Shown here one piece after another: positions 1,789-38,052 of a stretch of 51,899 nt of DNA. Origin of the DNA: an uncultured Flavobacteriaceae bacterium. Lineage in GTDB: Bacteria > Bacteroidota > Bacteroidia > Flavobacteriales > Flavobacteriaceae. How positions within the stretch are numbered: the first letter of the stretch is position 1; each line of letters begins with the position of its first letter. The notes beneath the pieces are model-generated. The model made no database searches. It was not told the origin of the DNA and saw only the letters and a program-made list of their open reading frames with translations. A program made the translations under genes and the position numbers. The stretch spans positions 1-51,899 of the forward strand of contig CALDUQ010000025.1 in the NCBI GenBank assembly GCA_937924845.1, in the 5' to 3' direction.

Positions 1789-1796
1789 TACTTTTG
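1789..1796 (+). promoter_or_regulatory. Candidate -7 element of the WYL gene
   Basis: TACTTTTG matches the Bacteroidetes -7 consensus TAnnTTTG. It lies 42 bp before the WYL start codon, so a leader of roughly 35 nt is expected. A clear -33 TTTG partner at the usual spacing was not found. Confidence 0.45.
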
Positions 1797-1838
1797 TTAT
1801 TTTCAAAATATTAGCTAAAATTGAATAAACCTAATTGA

Positions 1839-2729
1839 ATGTCTCAAGAAAAAATAATTTTACGTCATAGCTTAATAATTAATAAAATTGAAAAATCAGC
1901 TTGTAATTGGAAAGATATAGAGGATTACCTGGCCTTGCAGTCAGAATATCATGATTATGATTTCAATATTTCTTTGCGTACTTTTCAGCGAGACCTTAAC
2001 AATTTACGAACAATTTATGGGATAGATATACAATACGATTCAAATACAGAGGTTTATAAAATAATTGAGGATAGTAACCAGTATAATAATCGACTTCTAG
2101 AAAGTTTAAACATAATTAACGCTACTATACTTGCTAAAAATACATCTAATTTTTTAAGTTTCGAGAAAAGAAAATCTAACGGAACCGAACATTTTTACGA
2201 AATATTACATTGTATTAAGCATAGTACAACATTAAAAATTAGACACAAAAAATTTAATGACGACGAACCAAAGGAAAGAGAGGTTGCTCCTTACTCATTA
2301 AAAGAATCTAAACATCGTTGGTATTTAATTGCAAAAGATTTAAATGAAGGAATAATAAAAAATTTTGGCTTAGACCGAATCGAAAGAATATCAAAAACAG
2401 TTAATAAATTTACGTACCCTGTTGATTTTAAAATCGAGGAACACACTAAACACAGTTTTGGTATTGTTTTTAGTACTGACCCGCCAGAAGAGATAATTTT
2501 ATCGTTTTCGGAATGGCAAGGGAGGTACGTCAAAGCATTACCCTTACACCATTCACAAGAAATTCTAGTTGATACTCCAGATGAATTTAGAATAAAATTA
2601 TACTTATGCCAAAGTTATGATTTTGAGATGGAACTTCTTTCTTTTGGAAAAGAAGTAACCGTAATTGAGCCTTTAAGTTTAAAAAACACTATTAAAGAAA
2701 AATTAAAAGCCACCTTAAATAATTATTAA
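1839..2729 (+). CDS. WYL domain transcriptional regulator
   Basis: A protein of 296 residues. The N-terminal ~75 residues resemble the winged helix-turn-helix of YafY/WYL regulators (IINKIEKSACNWKDIEDYL ... FNISLRTFQRDLNNLRTIYGIDI). The central WYL domain carries SLKESKHRWYLIAKD followed by FGLDRIERI, the hallmark Trp-Tyr-Leu plus downstream basic residues that in other family members bind nucleic acid or nucleotide ligands. The C-terminal ~80 residues form the WCX extension (DPPEEIILSFSEWQGRYVKALPLH...SQEI). WYL regulators are cytoplasmic and often control defence or DNA-repair genes. It is convergent with the unknown three-gene operon and lies within the same repeat-bracketed segment, so regulation of that operon is a reasonable inference but not shown. 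Confidence 0.9.
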   Translation: MSQEKIILRHSLIINKIEKSACNWKDIEDYLALQSEYHDYDFNISLRTFQRDLNNLRTIYGIDIQYDSNTEVYKIIEDSNQYNNRLLESLNIINATILAKNTSNFLSFEKRKSNGTEHFYEILHCIKHSTTLKIRHKKFNDDEPKEREVAPYSLKESKHRWYLIAKDLNEGIIKNFGLDRIERISKTVNKFTYPVDFKIEEHTKHSFGIVFSTDPPEEIILSFSEWQGRYVKALPLHHSQEILVDTPDEFRIKLYLCQSYDFEMELLSFGKEVTVIEPLSLKNTIKEKLKATLNNY

Positions 2730-2769
2730 AAAATACGCCTATTTTGTTCTTAAAATAGGCGTATTTTTT
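2728..2769. terminator. Bidirectional terminator
   Basis: An 18-bp perfect stem (2728-2745 with 2752-2769) with a 6-base loop GTTCTT. It begins with an A-run and ends with a T-run, so it can terminate both the WYL gene and the convergent operon. Confidence 0.92.
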
Positions 2770-2799
2770 AATAATTATAATATAAAACCTGTCTCTTTG

Positions 2800-3897
2800 T
2801 TAGTTTAAATTACTGCCGTAAAGCCATTTAATTAGCATTTTTCTATTCTTCTTTTTTAAATCATTACAAATAATAAACTTTTTGTTTTTCCACTCAAAAA
2901 ACGGCGTTTTGTAATAAACATCACTATTAACTGGACGAGATTTAGCGTGTATTATTTCATTAGTATCTCCTGTAACATCGACTAATAGCGGATAACTCAA
3001 TTTACATATTTCTTTTACCTTTTCATTATCTGTTAAACTAATAAAATCGCTAAAACCTATATCTTTTAAGTTTTCAAGAAATTTAAATATAAAATCTTTG
3101 TTTTTTAATTTTTTATCAAATTTAACATTGATGTCATATAAATCTAATTTCGGTTCACTTATCTCATCTTCTTTAGGCTTTATAAAATTTATTATATTAT
3201 TTTTAATCAAATCTTCTACAATTATAGTTTCATCTTTATATTTTGAATAATCTTCTTCAAAATCAAAGGCGCATTTAAAGATGCTGTTAATGCAATACAA
3301 TTTTTGATGTAAAATCTCCGTAATAATTTGTATTTTCTTGACTAAGGAACTATTGTTTTTTGATTTATCAAGTATAAAAGAAAACGTTTGAGGGATTAAT
3401 GAAATGTTCCACAATGAAGTAAAAAAGTAAGGATTACTTGTGTTACCCCATACATGTGAAATAGTATAATTTTTATAATCACTTATAGCACCTTGACTAA
3501 CTCTATAACCTGTATAATTAAATATTTCTTTTCGCACATAATAATTACCATCTTTATCCGTAAGAACTTTTATGTTACTTTCATTGTGAAATAAATCGTT
3601 AGCCTCAGCAAATATCCTAGCCTCTTTTCTGTTCTTAAAATTTTTACTATGTTTTTTATTTAAGTTGTTATTTTTATGAAAATAAAAATGCGCTTTTGCC
3701 TTTGTTGAAAATCTAACTGGGATTTTTTCGTTATTTTTTATATTCTCTTTAATTTTATTTGCTTGTATAGAGACACTTTTTGTGTCAAAAAACAAAACGC
3801 TAGAAAAATAATGATTAATAAATTCCCGTTCATTTTTAAACAAACATAAAATTGATTCTAAGCCATCTTTTTTATTAATAATTTCTGAATACCACAT
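2800..3897 (-). CDS. Unknown protein with HNH-like signature
   Basis: A protein of 365 residues, third gene of the minus-strand operon, with no signal peptide or membrane segment. I do not recognise the family. Around residues 145-180 the sequence reads YTISHVWGNTSNPYFF, then WNISLIPQTF and DKSKN. A His after a beta-strand, an Asn about 17 residues later in a W-N-I context and a following helix recall the ordering of an HNH (beta-beta-alpha-metal) nuclease core, but the canonical second His and zinc cysteines are absent. The N-terminal third is Lys/Asn-rich; the C-terminus (FFEWKNKKFIICNDL...IKWLYG) is probably beta-rich. A 63-bp gap separates it from the preceding gene. A restriction or defence nuclease is possible; confidence in any function is low, but the long ORF and operon position support a real gene. 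Confidence 0.72.
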   Translation of the reverse strand: MWYSEIINKKDGLESILCLFKNEREFINHYFSSVLFFDTKSVSIQANKIKENIKNNEKIPVRFSTKAKAHFYFHKNNNLNKKHSKNFKNRKEARIFAEANDLFHNESNIKVLTDKDGNYYVRKEIFNYTGYRVSQGAISDYKNYTISHVWGNTSNPYFFTSLWNISLIPQTFSFILDKSKNNSSLVKKIQIITEILHQKLYCINSIFKCAFDFEEDYSKYKDETIIVEDLIKNNIINFIKPKEDEISEPKLDLYDINVKFDKKLKNKDFIFKFLENLKDIGFSDFISLTDNEKVKEICKLSYPLLVDVTGDTNEIIHAKSRPVNSDVYYKTPFFEWKNKKFIICNDLKKKNRKMLIKWLYGSNLN

Positions 3898-3960
3898 ATT
3901 TTTTTAGTATTTAAAACATCTCGACTAATAAATGTAATTATATGAGCGAATGCCTTGTTT

Positions 3961-4458
3961 TTATTTTTCTTTGTTAATTAATATTTTAGTTTTTGAAGGC
4001 GTGTTTTTTTTTGTAGTAAAATAACATTTTTCAATCGCTAAATTTTTTGCTATTTCGTTTTTAAAACAACTTACGTTTTTACCAAAAACACGTATTTCTT
4101 TAGCGTTAAACCTGTTTAAATCATCACTATCAAAATCTTCTGATTCAAAAAAGCCTAGAGATATAAATTTTGACATATCATTTTTTCTTGCTTTTTTCAT
4201 GGCCTTTAAGCCAATAGCAAACATTTCGGAATCGTAAAACTCCTTTAAATGCTGTTGGGCATGTAAATCACCAACATAAAACAATCCTTTTGAGTTAAGT
4301 AAAACTTCAAGAATACTTTCGTAATAATTTATTGCTTTTTCTCTAGCCATTTGGTTTGTTTTTCCTTCAAATATTTTATCAAAAAAAACGTCTTCAAATT
4401 CTAAAAACTGATTGTTCCGATAAAGGCTTCCTGTAATTACATATTTAATTTTTTTCAT
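3961..4458 (-). CDS. Unknown island protein (165 aa)
   Basis: A soluble, Lys-rich protein with no signal peptide, family not recognised. It is the middle gene of the minus-strand trio, starting 7 bp after the stop of the 315-residue gene, so translational coupling is likely. Its N-terminus (IKYVITGSLY ... FFDKIFEGKTNQMAREKAINYYESIL) has the same arrangement as the N-terminus of the 315-residue neighbour: short beta-strands, a K-I-F motif, then an amphipathic helix with A-x-NY[YF]. A common N-terminal domain is suggested. No catalytic motif is visible. Confidence 0.72.
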   Translation of the reverse strand: MKKIKYVITGSLYRNNQFLEFEDVFFDKIFEGKTNQMAREKAINYYESILEVLLNSKGLFYVGDLHAQQHLKEFYDSEMFAIGLKAMKKARKNDMSKFISLGFFESEDFDSDDLNRFNAKEIRVFGKNVSCFKNEIAKNLAIEKCYFTTKKNTPSKTKILINKEK

Positions 4459-4465
4459 AATGAAC

Positions 4466-5413
4466 TTATAACCATTTCCTAATTGACGCTTTAATATTAA
4501 AAGGGCTTTTTTTTATTAAAACAGCTGTTTTTTGCAGTATTTTTTCTTGCTTTTTGGTTATTAAGTACTTGTATTCAGAAATTTTATCAAATAATTGCTC
4601 GCTATTTTCTAAAGTTAAATCATCAATTTTTTCTTCATTAACTAGATTGTAATAATTTAGCAATGAAGATATTTCTTTACTCACCTTTTCAAGTTTAAAA
4701 TTGATTTTGTTCATTTTACTTATGCGTAAATAATCCTCTACACTAGTGTTGTTTTTATATTTATTTTGAGTATTATCACTTGTGTAAAATTGAGGTGTCT
4801 CTATATAGTTTTGTCTTTTGTGTTTTATTATATCTCTTATTGTTTTTATGTATATAAATTCATTTTCATTAGCATAATAATCAAAATTATTGACCATATA
4901 ATTAAATAAATGCTTTTGCTTTACAAAGTTTTTAAACCGCTTAGCGTATGCAATTCTAATGTGATTTTGACTATAATATTCATATTCTATAAGTAAGTTA
5001 ATTTTTAATAAATCTTCTACTTTTTTTAAATTATTACCGATAGCACCAATAGGTAATAATTCCTCATTAGAAGGCTCAAAAATGTCATTTTTAACAATTA
5101 CAAATGATATGGTTACCTCTAAATTAAACAGCTGCCCTTTTGTGTAAATTGATACATCTGTTTCTTCTGCAAGACATAAAAATGGGTCTGTATGATAAGT
5201 TTGTTTTGATCTTTCGTTAAATAAATTTAATTTTTGACGTTTAACGTGATATTCATCACGTTTACGTTTAAAATAATTAAAAGCTCTAATACGTAATTTT
5301 AAAGGCGAGTCTAAAGCAAAAATTTTTGTTTCCTTTTGTGGCTTCTGCTTTTTTAGGCCTTTATCTACAGGCATTATAGTTTCAACGACATAATAAATGT
5401 TATAATTTTTCAT
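4466..5413 (-). CDS. Unknown island protein (315 aa)
   Basis: First gene of the island operon. It is soluble, AT-rich in codon use, and its family is not recognised. Residues 1-55 (NIYYVVETIMP ... ETKIFALDSPLKLRIRAFNYFKRKRDEY) resemble the start of the downstream 165-residue protein. Residues ~85-110 are beta-rich (DVSIYTKGQLFNLEVTISF). The C-terminal ~100 residues are helical and Lys-rich with coiled-coil character (KMNKINFKLEKVSKEISSLLNYY ... KQEKILQKTAVLIKK). A TAGTTTTG -7 element lies ~32 bp upstream on the minus strand. No nuclease, ATPase or methylase motif is seen. It could be a sensor or adaptor subunit working with the HNH-like protein, but that is inference only. Confidence 0.75.
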   Translation of the reverse strand: MKNYNIYYVVETIMPVDKGLKKQKPQKETKIFALDSPLKLRIRAFNYFKRKRDEYHVKRQKLNLFNERSKQTYHTDPFLCLAEETDVSIYTKGQLFNLEVTISFVIVKNDIFEPSNEELLPIGAIGNNLKKVEDLLKINLLIEYEYYSQNHIRIAYAKRFKNFVKQKHLFNYMVNNFDYYANENEFIYIKTIRDIIKHKRQNYIETPQFYTSDNTQNKYKNNTSVEDYLRISKMNKINFKLEKVSKEISSLLNYYNLVNEEKIDDLTLENSEQLFDKISEYKYLITKKQEKILQKTAVLIKKSPFNIKASIRKWL

Positions 5414-5452
5414 TTTGCATTATTTGGTTATAAATTATTTGATGCAAAACTA
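5413..5452 (-). promoter_or_regulatory. Promoter and inverted repeat before island operon
   Basis: On the minus strand, TAGTTTTG (5452-5445) fits the TAnnTTTG -7 consensus. Overlapping it is an inverted repeat TTTTGCAT (5413-5420) / ATGCAAAA (5442-5449), with a TTATTTG direct repeat inside (5420-5426 and 5435-5441). It covers the likely start site and start codon and could be the operator of the WYL regulator. Confidence 0.45.
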
Positions 5453-5519
5453 AAAACCGAGTACGCCATAACATGTCGTTTGTAAATGTAAAACGAATAA
5501 CATTATATATAGTGAGTTG

Positions 5520-5578
5520 TTTTTACAAAGAAATGACAGTGCGTTATGTGAAAATTTATAAAATTTACATACTATAAT
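5520..5578 (+). repeat. Island-flanking noncoding repeat, right copy
   Basis: The direct-orientation partner of 1700-1757, beginning AATGACAG at 5532 and ending TTTACATACTATAAT. Seven substitutions and no gaps separate the 47-base cores. Confidence 0.75.
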
Positions 5579-5595
5579 TTTAAATCGTTATTGTC

Positions 5596-5615
5596 ATTCC
5601 TGCGTAAGCAGGAAT
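5596..5615. repeat. REP-like palindrome, copy 2 (GTAA loop)
   Basis: A perfect 8-bp stem ATTCCTGC / GCAGGAAT with a GTAA (GNRA-type) loop, followed by CTAAAAC as in copy 1. Confidence 0.85.
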
Positions 5616-5640
5616 CTAAAACAATTATAATTTCACATAT

Positions 5641-19741: not shown

Positions 19742-19810
19742 TCATTACTTCGAAAATAGCGAATCTATTACAGTTTATTTAGCATAGATTCCTGCGTACG
19801 CAGGAATAAC
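19742..19810. repeat. Head-to-head REP pair (BIME-like)
   Basis: A degenerate copy, TCATTACTTCGAAAATAGCG then AATCTA (19742-19767), faces a perfect inverted copy, TAGATTCCTGC-GTAC-GCAGGAAT (core 19788-19807), across a short spacer. GAATCTA and TAGATTC can also pair with each other, so the pair can form one larger structure. This is the arrangement of bacterial interspersed mosaic elements. Confidence 0.7.
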
Positions 19811-19820
19811 AAAAAAAACA

Positions 19821-36123: not shown

Positions 36124-38052
36124 TTAATTGTGTTTGACTGTTATTGAAACAGTGGTTCCTTTTTTGTTTGATTCTACATTCAAGTTACCGTTAATTTTTG
36201 TTAGACGGTTTTGTATGCTTTGCATTCCAATGCCTTTTGTTATTGCTTTTGTGTTAAAGCCAATGCCATTATCTTTAACGGATAAATAAATATGCGTATT
36301 AGTATTGGCTAGTTTAACTATTGCTGTACTGGCTTTAGCATGCGTGATAATGTTTTTTAAAAGTTCTTGAACTATTCTATAAAGTTCAACTTTTTGTTCT
36401 TGATTTGTTTTTAAGTTTAATGTAAAATTATTAAATATTATTTTAGTATCAGTAAAACTATTCGTTTTATCGCAATATTTTTTTAACAAATCTTTTAAGT
36501 CATATTCAAAATTAGTGTCGTTTTCTAAATTTTTAGAGATGTTTTGTATTTCATTACTGGTTTTTTTAAGTTGAAAAACAATATCGTTAAGTTTTGTTTT
36601 GAGTGCTGGTGATAATTTTTTTCCAGTAATTGCTGCTAACTTAAAGGTTAAGTTATTGATGTTAGAATTGATGACATAGTTTAAGTTTTGAGCCAAGCGT
36701 TTTCGTTCATTTTCTTCACTTTCTATTACTGCATTTAATTTTATGGTTTTCTTTTCAACCAAAAGGGTGTTTAGTTTTTTTGAGTTTAATGTTTTGTGAT
36801 TTTTTATACTAATTAAAAGTTGAATGCTAAATACAATTAAAACAAATAAACTTATATATAAAATTGATGCCTGTTGTTGCTTTTTTTTGAGTTTATTTTG
36901 TTGTTTAAGTATAACTTTTTTTTGTGACGCTAATTCTGTGTTTTTATAATTTTGCTCATTTAAAATGGCTAATGAACCAGATGTTTTTTTTGAATTAAAA
37001 ATTGATTCGAAATTTTTTAATTCAGTAAGTTGGTTTTTAAATTTAAAAGCCTTTTTGTGATTGCCTTCCTTATTATAGATTTTTGATAAAAAAGCTAACG
37101 CCTTTTTTTTGTAATATGTTTTTTGCTTATTCGTTGCAGAATCTAATATGTTGTGAAAAATAGTTTTGGATAAACTTATACGTCCTGTATTAAAGTAAAC
37201 GTTTCCTAATAGTGTCAACGCCTCGTTTTTATGACCAGCTGCAGCTGTGTATTCGCACAAATTTAGTGCGCTTTTAGCATGATTTTCGGCAAGTTTAAGT
37301 TTTTCAATTTTTAAATAATAATTAGCAAGTCTGTTGTTTAGCCATATTTTGTTGTAATTGTTATTTAGTTTTTCTGCATATACGCCAGCTTTTTTATAAT
37401 GTTTTAGAGCAAGGTCTAATTTGTTTTGTGAGGTTAAGGCATCCCCTAAGCAAATGTATAATTCTGTAAAAACTCTGTTGGGGTTTTCAAGTTTTGATTT
37501 GTTAGAATCAGCAATACTTTTTGCTTTGTTGTAATGGTTTAAAGCTTTTTCAAATTGTTTTAATGATGTGTAAATGACAGCAATGCGTTGATTAATTTTA
37601 ATACTTTGATCAGCATTGTTTTTTAGATAATTTAATGCTTTAAAACCGTGATGTAATGCTGATGTGTAATCATTAAGGTAGCTATAAGAAAACGCTAAGC
37701 AAGTATGCGTAATACCAATTACTTCATTGTATTTAGGGTTGTTTTTTGATACTTCAAAATCAATGTTTTCTAAATAATAATTTTTAGATTCTTGATGAAG
37801 GTTGCGATAAAAATAGCTATTTCCAATTACAATATTCGCGTTTAGATAGCCTTTGAAATACCCTGTTTTTAGAGCAATTGTTTTTGCTTCAATGCCTAAA
37901 TCAATTGTTTTTTGGGGATGTGTTGTGTAAAATGTTTTAGCTTTTGCTAATAAATTAGTAACATATATCGAATCATTTACTGCAGCACCGTAGCTTAGTA
38001 GGGATGATATTAAAATATATAGGGTTACTATGTTTTTTTTTGTTATTAGCAT
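36124..38052 (-). CDS. TPR sensor histidine kinase lacking phospho-acceptor His
   Basis: A protein of 642 residues. Signal peptide (~23), then TPR repeats (~30-360), a coiled coil (KKVILKQQNKLKKKQQQ), a membrane helix at ~396-416, a HisKA_3-like dimerisation helix at ~440-510 and an HATPase_c domain (~525-640). The N-box (QELLKNIITHAKAS), G1 (VKDNGIGFN) and G2 (GIGMQSIQNRL) are present. In the X-box, where the family has E-R-x-R-[IL]-A-x-D-L-H-D, this protein has ERKRLAQNLNY: Asn458 (codon at 36681-36679) stands in place of His, and both neighbouring Asp are also changed. It is probably an ATP-binding pseudokinase, or receives phosphate elsewhere. Confidence 0.9.
   Translation of the reverse strand: MLITKKNIVTLYILISSLLSYGAAVNDSIYVTNLLAKAKTFYTTHPQKTIDLGIEAKTIALKTGYFKGYLNANIVIGNSYFYRNLHQESKNYYLENIDFEVSKNNPKYNEVIGITHTCLAFSYSYLNDYTSALHHGFKALNYLKNNADQSIKINQRIAVIYTSLKQFEKALNHYNKAKSIADSNKSKLENPNRVFTELYICLGDALTSQNKLDLALKHYKKAGVYAEKLNNNYNKIWLNNRLANYYLKIEKLKLAENHAKSALNLCEYTAAAGHKNEALTLLGNVYFNTGRISLSKTIFHNILDSATNKQKTYYKKKALAFLSKIYNKEGNHKKAFKFKNQLTELKNFESIFNSKKTSGSLAILNEQNYKNTELASQKKVILKQQNKLKKKQQQASILYISLFVLIVFSIQLLISIKNHKTLNSKKLNTLLVEKKTIKLNAVIESEENERKRLAQNLNYVINSNINNLTFKLAAITGKKLSPALKTKLNDIVFQLKKTSNEIQNISKNLENDTNFEYDLKDLLKKYCDKTNSFTDTKIIFNNFTLNLKTNQEQKVELYRIVQELLKNIITHAKASTAIVKLANTNTHIYLSVKDNGIGFNTKAITKGIGMQSIQNRLTKINGNLNVESNKKGTTVSITVKHN

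Follow-up and report, generated by a model that had tools for sequence, protein, structure and literature searches.

A WYL-associated gene block in a flavobacterial genome as a probable divergent member of a mobile cassette with an exchangeable last gene

Introduction

Some modular systems, for example CBASS and Thoeris, have exchangeable effectors. WYL regulators are documented to bind inverted repeats and to repress defence operons (PMC9122601, PMC9122588). Two protein domains matter for the comparison below. The NOV_C domain has been described as a REase and occurs in restriction loci (PMC3710099). Among bacterial Schlafen/AlbA_2 proteins, some are reported to be anti-phage, according to a preprint as cited in PMC12839542.

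Here we analyse a locus in an uncultured Flavobacteriaceae bacterium (assembly GCA_937924845.1). The window, that is the whole stretch of DNA analysed, comprises 51,899 nucleotides of contig CALDUQ010000025.1. A preliminary description had proposed that three genes and a convergent WYL gene near its left end form an undescribed accessory system. We put at about 0.58 the probability that this block belongs, as a divergent flavobacterial form, to a mobile WYL-associated cassette, most likely anti-phage or anti-plasmid in function.

Results

The block contains three genes on the minus strand and a WYL gene on the plus strand. We name the three genes g1, g2 and g3 after their counterparts in the cassettes described below. 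The features are, from left to right:

1636-1662, unstranded: left border repeat, 27-mer (blastn within the window)
1699-1765, unstranded: left border repeat, 67-mer (blastn within the window)
1839-2729, plus strand: WYL/WCX transcription regulator, 296 aa, convergent with the trio (Pfam)
2719-2778, unstranded: hairpin, probable bidirectional terminator between the convergent stops
2800-3897, minus strand: g3, 365-aa putative HNH-like nuclease effector (g3 HMM, homologues in Chryseobacterium cassettes, homology to a compact family)
3298-3570, minus strand: predicted nuclease core of g3, residues 110-200 (high-confidence part of the model)
3367-3369, minus strand: core residue D177, invariant
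3406-3408, minus strand: core residue N164, invariant
3454-3456, minus strand: core residue H148, invariant
3961-4458, minus strand: g2, 165 aa, carries the N-terminal domain of g2 (residues 4-56) and lacks AlbA_2
4466-5413, minus strand: 315-aa protein in the g1 position (by position and size only)
5444-5452, minus strand: -7 box of a Bacteroidota-type promoter, TAGTTTTGC, upstream of the trio (read directly)
5461-5481, minus strand: candidate operator, imperfect palindrome AAACGACATGTTATGGCGTAC, at the conserved inverted-repeat position
5520-5584, unstranded: right border repeat, 67-mer (blastn within the window)
5596-5622, unstranded: right border repeat, 27-mer (blastn within the window)

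An operon for proteins of 315, 165 and 365 aa that faces a WYL gene over a terminator had been described here, and reading frames, orientation and hairpin (-32.2 kcal/mol, z -10.4) are confirmed. Each of the four ORFs is long and intact, and the block has 24-29% GC. The trio had also been called strikingly AT-rich and Lys/Asn-rich. The richness is real but only moderate, about 2 SD: GC lies 1.7-2.2 SD below, and Lys plus Asn content 1.8-2.5 SD above, the window's other ORFs. Outside the block, a 642-aa ORF at 36124-38052 (27% GC) has the window's top Lys/Asn content, 26%. The neighbours of the locus are ordinary genes, for example PadR and a carboxypeptidase, and no defence genes were identified around it.

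None of the three proteins has a convincing family match in Pfam, NCBIfam, PADLOC or PHROGs, so that the assertion that they belong to no known family is borne out in four libraries. The 165-aa protein also had a phosphorylase match in NCBIfam (2e-4), which was rejected because it is confined to a single short stretch inside the protein and lies far below the cut-off. Direct searches of viral contigs, phages and plasmids with the 315-aa and 165-aa proteins gave no match.

Boundary repeats had been claimed as well, and direct copies of a 27-mer (96% identity) and of a 67-mer (82% identity) are found at both borders, each pair in the same orientation by blastn. The exact core of the 27-mer has three copies in the 1.95-Mb assembly, two of them at the borders of the locus. 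Since degenerate copies occur elsewhere in the genome, the 27-mer is a low-copy dispersed repeat. For the 67-mer, the only strong copy in the genome is the one at the other border. A third copy of the 27-mer border palindrome lies on the opposite strand at 19785-19813 of the window.

Related loci were reached through the 365-aa protein. It gave a weak local match in plasmids, which led to alignments of a compact family of about 220 aa and from these to further loci; the compact-family alignments fetched 4 viral contigs and 47 genomic loci. Two Chryseobacterium loci (L017, L018) hold near full-length matches to the 365-aa protein. Their surroundings form a four-gene cassette, with proteins of 337, 284 and 352 aa and a convergent WYL gene. 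A further copy (L064) is on a plasmid of Chryseobacterium oryzae. Of 296 Chryseobacterium-family genomes searched with a profile, 11 had a match, and their regions were extracted and read. Intact cassettes are present at 10 loci in 9 Weeksellaceae genomes (L017, L018, L064 and L077-L083); L084 and L085 are decayed copies.

The order g1-g2-g3 followed by a convergent WYL gene, directly after the last gene, is found in 10 of 10 intact loci. The window locus matches it in order and orientation. Most of the cassette loci found look chromosomal, and in relatives the cassette is sporadic, on a plasmid and at differing sites. L078 and L079, for instance, have similar cassettes at different genomic sites. 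L017 and L083, from different genera, share one kind of neighbour gene (201/219-aa protein, similar by eye) and have different effectors. A classical HNH endonuclease gene (L085:4999-5871) adjoins one decayed cassette. We found no paper on this cassette in the open-access literature; preprints and most subscription papers were outside the scope of that search, and an earlier description with priority, for example in a preprint, is possible.

The last gene of the cassettes is of four unrelated types:

HNH-like: L017 and L018, L064, remnant L085
NOV_C/DUF3883: L078, L079, L083
285 aa, no recognised domain (type d): L080-L082
219 aa, no recognised domain: L077

The NOV_C (DUF3883) matches of the second type are at 5e-11 and 8e-12. 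Between L064 and L077, the g1, g2 and WYL proteins are 90, 92 and 92% identical, and the g3 proteins are unrelated. Hence the last gene has been exchanged between copies. The L078-L079 group and the L080-L082 group likewise combine near-identical partners with unrelated last genes. Since the 219-aa and 285-aa effectors carry no recognised domain, both are presumed nucleases. Type d was considered as an HNH protein, as its SH...N..IPK string resembles the core, but hhalign does not support this and we rejected the assignment.

In the cassettes, g2 joins a new N-terminal domain to a Schlafen AlbA_2 domain (5.7e-12 in the 284-aa g2); against PADLOC it has only a weak match to PDC-S09 (0.012). The window's 165-aa protein matches the g2 HMM over its first 50 residues (E 1.1e-4 among 54 ORFs), takes rank 1 of 54 by hhalign, and ends before the AlbA_2 domain (alignment A11). 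The 315-aa protein agrees with the g1 family (about 316-337 aa) in size and position. HMM and hhalign show no homology between the two, and forced alignment gives 14-22% identity.

The window's g3 matches the g3 HMM at E 2.3e-25. Homology between the g3 group and the compact family (99%, E 1.9e-18) extends over most of the length of the compact protein. Members of that family have about 220 aa and the motif NYQ(V/I)SH(I/V)(F/W)G.TKN...F.APWNI...PK..DPFTGHE. These 'SHxxG...N...GHE' proteins occur in many phyla and have no entry in the libraries searched.

The model of the window's g3 is confident at residues of about 20-60, 110-200 and 220-240, whereas the final 115 residues are poorly modelled; in the core, pLDDT is about 80-94 per block. 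In this model, a beta-beta-alpha unit is made up of two strands (144-148, 165-169) and a helix (170-177); H148 ends strand 1 and N164 lies just before strand 2. D114, N118, H148, N164, P169 and D177 are invariant (alignments A12, A14). The third canonical HNH residue, a His, is not conserved in g3; D177 is conserved there. A compact relative (L022), modelled at a mean pLDDT of 96, has the same unit. Among solved structures, the HNH domain of ScoMcrA is the best plausible match for both models, and all such matches are weak (Z 2.5-3.5). In the VIA-align lists, ScoMcrA stands at the top for the window model, with EcoKMcrA second, and ScoMcrA for L022, and the Foldseek matches of the g3 folds are weak (E 0.6 or worse). 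No curated HNH match in Pfam or NCBIfam was obtained for the window's g3 or the scanned compact members. From the predicted fold and the conserved residues, we read the window's g3 as an HNH-like nuclease of putative activity.

The compact family also occurs in other surroundings. The idea that it is generally one half of a restriction-modification pair was dropped: a motif search found few m5C-like neighbours (L016/L061, L034, L047). A general link to WYL genes was not found either, with a Selenomonas plasmid (L006) and one weak case (L051) as exceptions. On the Selenomonas plasmid, a compact HNH-like gene lies together with genes for a TPR protein and, convergently, a WYL regulator (L006:5632-8511), possibly an independent pairing of the compact nuclease family with WYL. 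In Pasteurella multocida, the histidine operon contains a compact HNH-like gene between hisB and hisH (L008:5674-6336), and copies in Actinobacillus, Mesocricetibacter and P. bettyae (L020, L021, L023) have similar-looking neighbours. A block of helix-turn-helix regulator, ImmA/IrrE-like peptidase and compact HNH-like gene, named by eye, recurs at L013, L015, L027, L041 and L048; it adjoins recombinase-like genes and occurs on viral contigs and in marine Gammaproteobacteria.

The window's WYL protein has Pfam WYL (1.4e-13) and WCX (8.5e-9) domains and matches the cassette-WYL HMM at 1.9e-38. It groups with a branch other than the cassette WYLs (support 0.91-0.99), namely with second WYLs encoded near L077, L080, L081 and L082. 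No other WYL gene was found in the window's genome, which is 88% complete. The second WYL genes lie at L077:9894-11978, L080:10591-11511, L081:10703-11623 and L082:4153-5154; that of L077 adjoins a PDDEXK_4 nuclease gene. Since g2 ends without AlbA_2, g1 homology is undetected and the WYL protein belongs to another branch, the window locus is a divergent relative and not a typical copy.

Bacteroidota promoters have a -7 box and a -33 element. When the regions upstream of g1 are aligned on the TTTGC promoter box, the Weeksellaceae cassettes show an inverted repeat of 21 bp whose centre lies 23 nt upstream of that box (AACTACCTGTTTTTGGTAGTT in L083). On average 5.8 of 8 pairs match, and none of 2000 shuffles, which keep base composition only, is as good. 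The repeat and the expected -33 element overlap, which is where a repressor would be placed to act. As predicted from the sequence, this conserved repeat is likely the WYL operator. The window's palindrome has the same centre as the Weeksellaceae repeat and is marginal taken alone (P about 0.05).

Beyond the window's genome, the sampled Flavobacteriaceae gave no cassette match: neither with g2 (396 other genomes) nor with g3 (198 other genomes), and the 315-aa protein found no match in 298. These counts are samples and not the whole family, and matches to AlbA_2 alone cover the common domain and not the g2 N-terminal domain. A single g2 sequence found no match in the window's class. The first HNH profile gave only three weak, unrelated-looking matches in a sample of the phylum outside the window's genome. 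We thus do not see the trio as core genes conserved at this locus, an outcome the preliminary description had named as contrary to its proposal. The proposal itself stands in part. Relatives of the 165-aa and 365-aa proteins recur together with a convergent WYL gene, but the 315-aa protein shows no detectable homology to g1 and the window's own WYL lies on another branch.

Discussion

Cassettes of fixed gene order with a convergent WYL gene and an exchanged last gene, in most cases a probable DNA-cutting enzyme, are what one would expect of a defence system that is undescribed and under tight regulation, and defence would be the role of the window block as well. As a divergent member of this mobile cassette, the window locus may be remodelled or decaying.

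We propose the following mechanism. The convergently encoded WYL protein would bind the inverted repeat at the promoter of the first gene and hold the operon low. Release would come from a ligand, a nucleotide or nucleic acid, that arises upon infection or DNA damage. The first two proteins would sense or bind nucleic acid of the invader, g2 through AlbA_2 where present, and license the last protein, an interchangeable nuclease. In the window, this effector would be an HNH-like enzyme whose general base is H148, with N164 and D177 in the active site of its predicted fold. The effector would cut DNA or RNA of the invader or of the host. The analysis itself shows the conserved order of the genes, the exchange of the last one, its nuclease-like core, the conserved inverted repeat and the tie to WYL, whereas sensing, triggering and defence are inferred.

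More generally, the cassettes may form an undescribed class of immune cassettes: two sensors that share an N-terminal motif, interchangeable nucleases (HNH-like, NOV_C and two without a recognised domain), a convergent WYL repressor, and a new HNH-like family of many phyla that also occurs alone. This wider reading is tentative, and we rate it somewhat below even odds.

How the effector would act is a question on which a second reading differs. In a restriction-like system of type IV style, the HNH-like or NOV_C protein would cut modified or foreign DNA recognised by g1 and g2, and the host would not be sacrificed. The best structural relatives of the core, ScoMcrA and EcoKMcrA, are modification-dependent, and NOV_C has its place in restriction loci. 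However, the fold matches are weak, the core is common to all HNH enzymes, and the exchange of effectors is silent on direct versus suicidal action. We consider such a system rather unlikely.

The exchangeable, toxic-looking last gene would also suit an addiction module similar to toxin-antitoxin systems, in which a nuclease toxin is restrained by the first two proteins and the block serves mainly to maintain plasmids or islands. The plasmid copy in Chryseobacterium oryzae, the repeats that flank the window block and the decayed remnants L084 and L085 agree with this. A size of three genes, a dedicated WYL regulator at all intact loci and the presence of AlbA_2 would be unusual for such a module, however, and most loci found look chromosomal. 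We consider an addiction module unlikely.

Equally unlikely, in our judgement, is that the window locus alone is a broken or repurposed remnant, which inherited the nuclease-like gene and the g2 N-terminal domain and has the 315-aa gene and the WYL gene as unrelated neighbours. Undetected g1 homology, the missing AlbA_2 domain, the WYL branch and the decayed copies elsewhere (L084, L085) all fit a remnant. Yet the four ORFs are long, intact and in cassette order and orientation within a block of low GC, the promoter box and the palindrome are kept at cassette spacing, and the WYL gene is the only one found in the genome.

That the block is simply a housekeeping operon of the Flavobacteriaceae chromosome, as the ordinary neighbours (PadR, carboxypeptidase) might suggest, is very improbable and largely refuted by sampling, given its absence from sampled family members and the sporadic occurrence, plasmid copy and differing sites in relatives.

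If the preferred reading of a mobile defence cassette is true, it adds a modular system that is absent from the PADLOC, Pfam and NCBIfam libraries searched. L064 and L077 would then be a natural pair in which only the last gene is exchanged, and through which sensing could be separated from killing. The analysis also brings out a widespread nuclease-like family without an entry in the searched libraries, and the conserved repeat gives a predicted WYL operator.

Among known systems, the g3 core shares with ScoMcrA and EcoKMcrA the beta-beta-alpha unit, a His that ends strand 1 and an Asn before strand 2. Unlike them, g3 has no Pfam HNH match, a weak Z and an Asp in place of the last His, and no known DNA-reader domain was matched in it. 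Bacterial Schlafen/AlbA_2 proteins have their domain in common with g2 of the intact Weeksellaceae cassettes. Here, in contrast, g2 stands as a protein of its own, starts with a new N-terminal domain and belongs to a cassette that also has exchangeable nucleases and a WYL gene.

A scan with PADLOC 2.0.0 found no core genes, only WYL and domain-level matches to TmtA/HmaA for the NOV_C effectors. BREX core genes (pglZ, brxC, methyltransferase) were absent from the PADLOC scan of the trio, the WYL gene and the cassette genes; no BREX genes were recognised among neighbouring ORFs, and no CBASS genes were seen at the locus. The regulation is nevertheless comparable: BrxR of BREX and CapW of CBASS (PMC9122601, PMC9122588) are WYL proteins, like the regulator here. 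There as here, the regulator is linked to an accessory operon whose products act on nucleic acid, and the likely operator is an inverted repeat at the promoter. The difference is one of place, as the WYL gene here faces the operon from its 3' end and does not lie at its promoter end. No cyclase, TIR domain or other known sensor or signal enzyme was detected in the cassette, which sets it apart from CBASS and Thoeris. With these two systems it shares its architecture, a conserved sensing part combined with a variable killing part.
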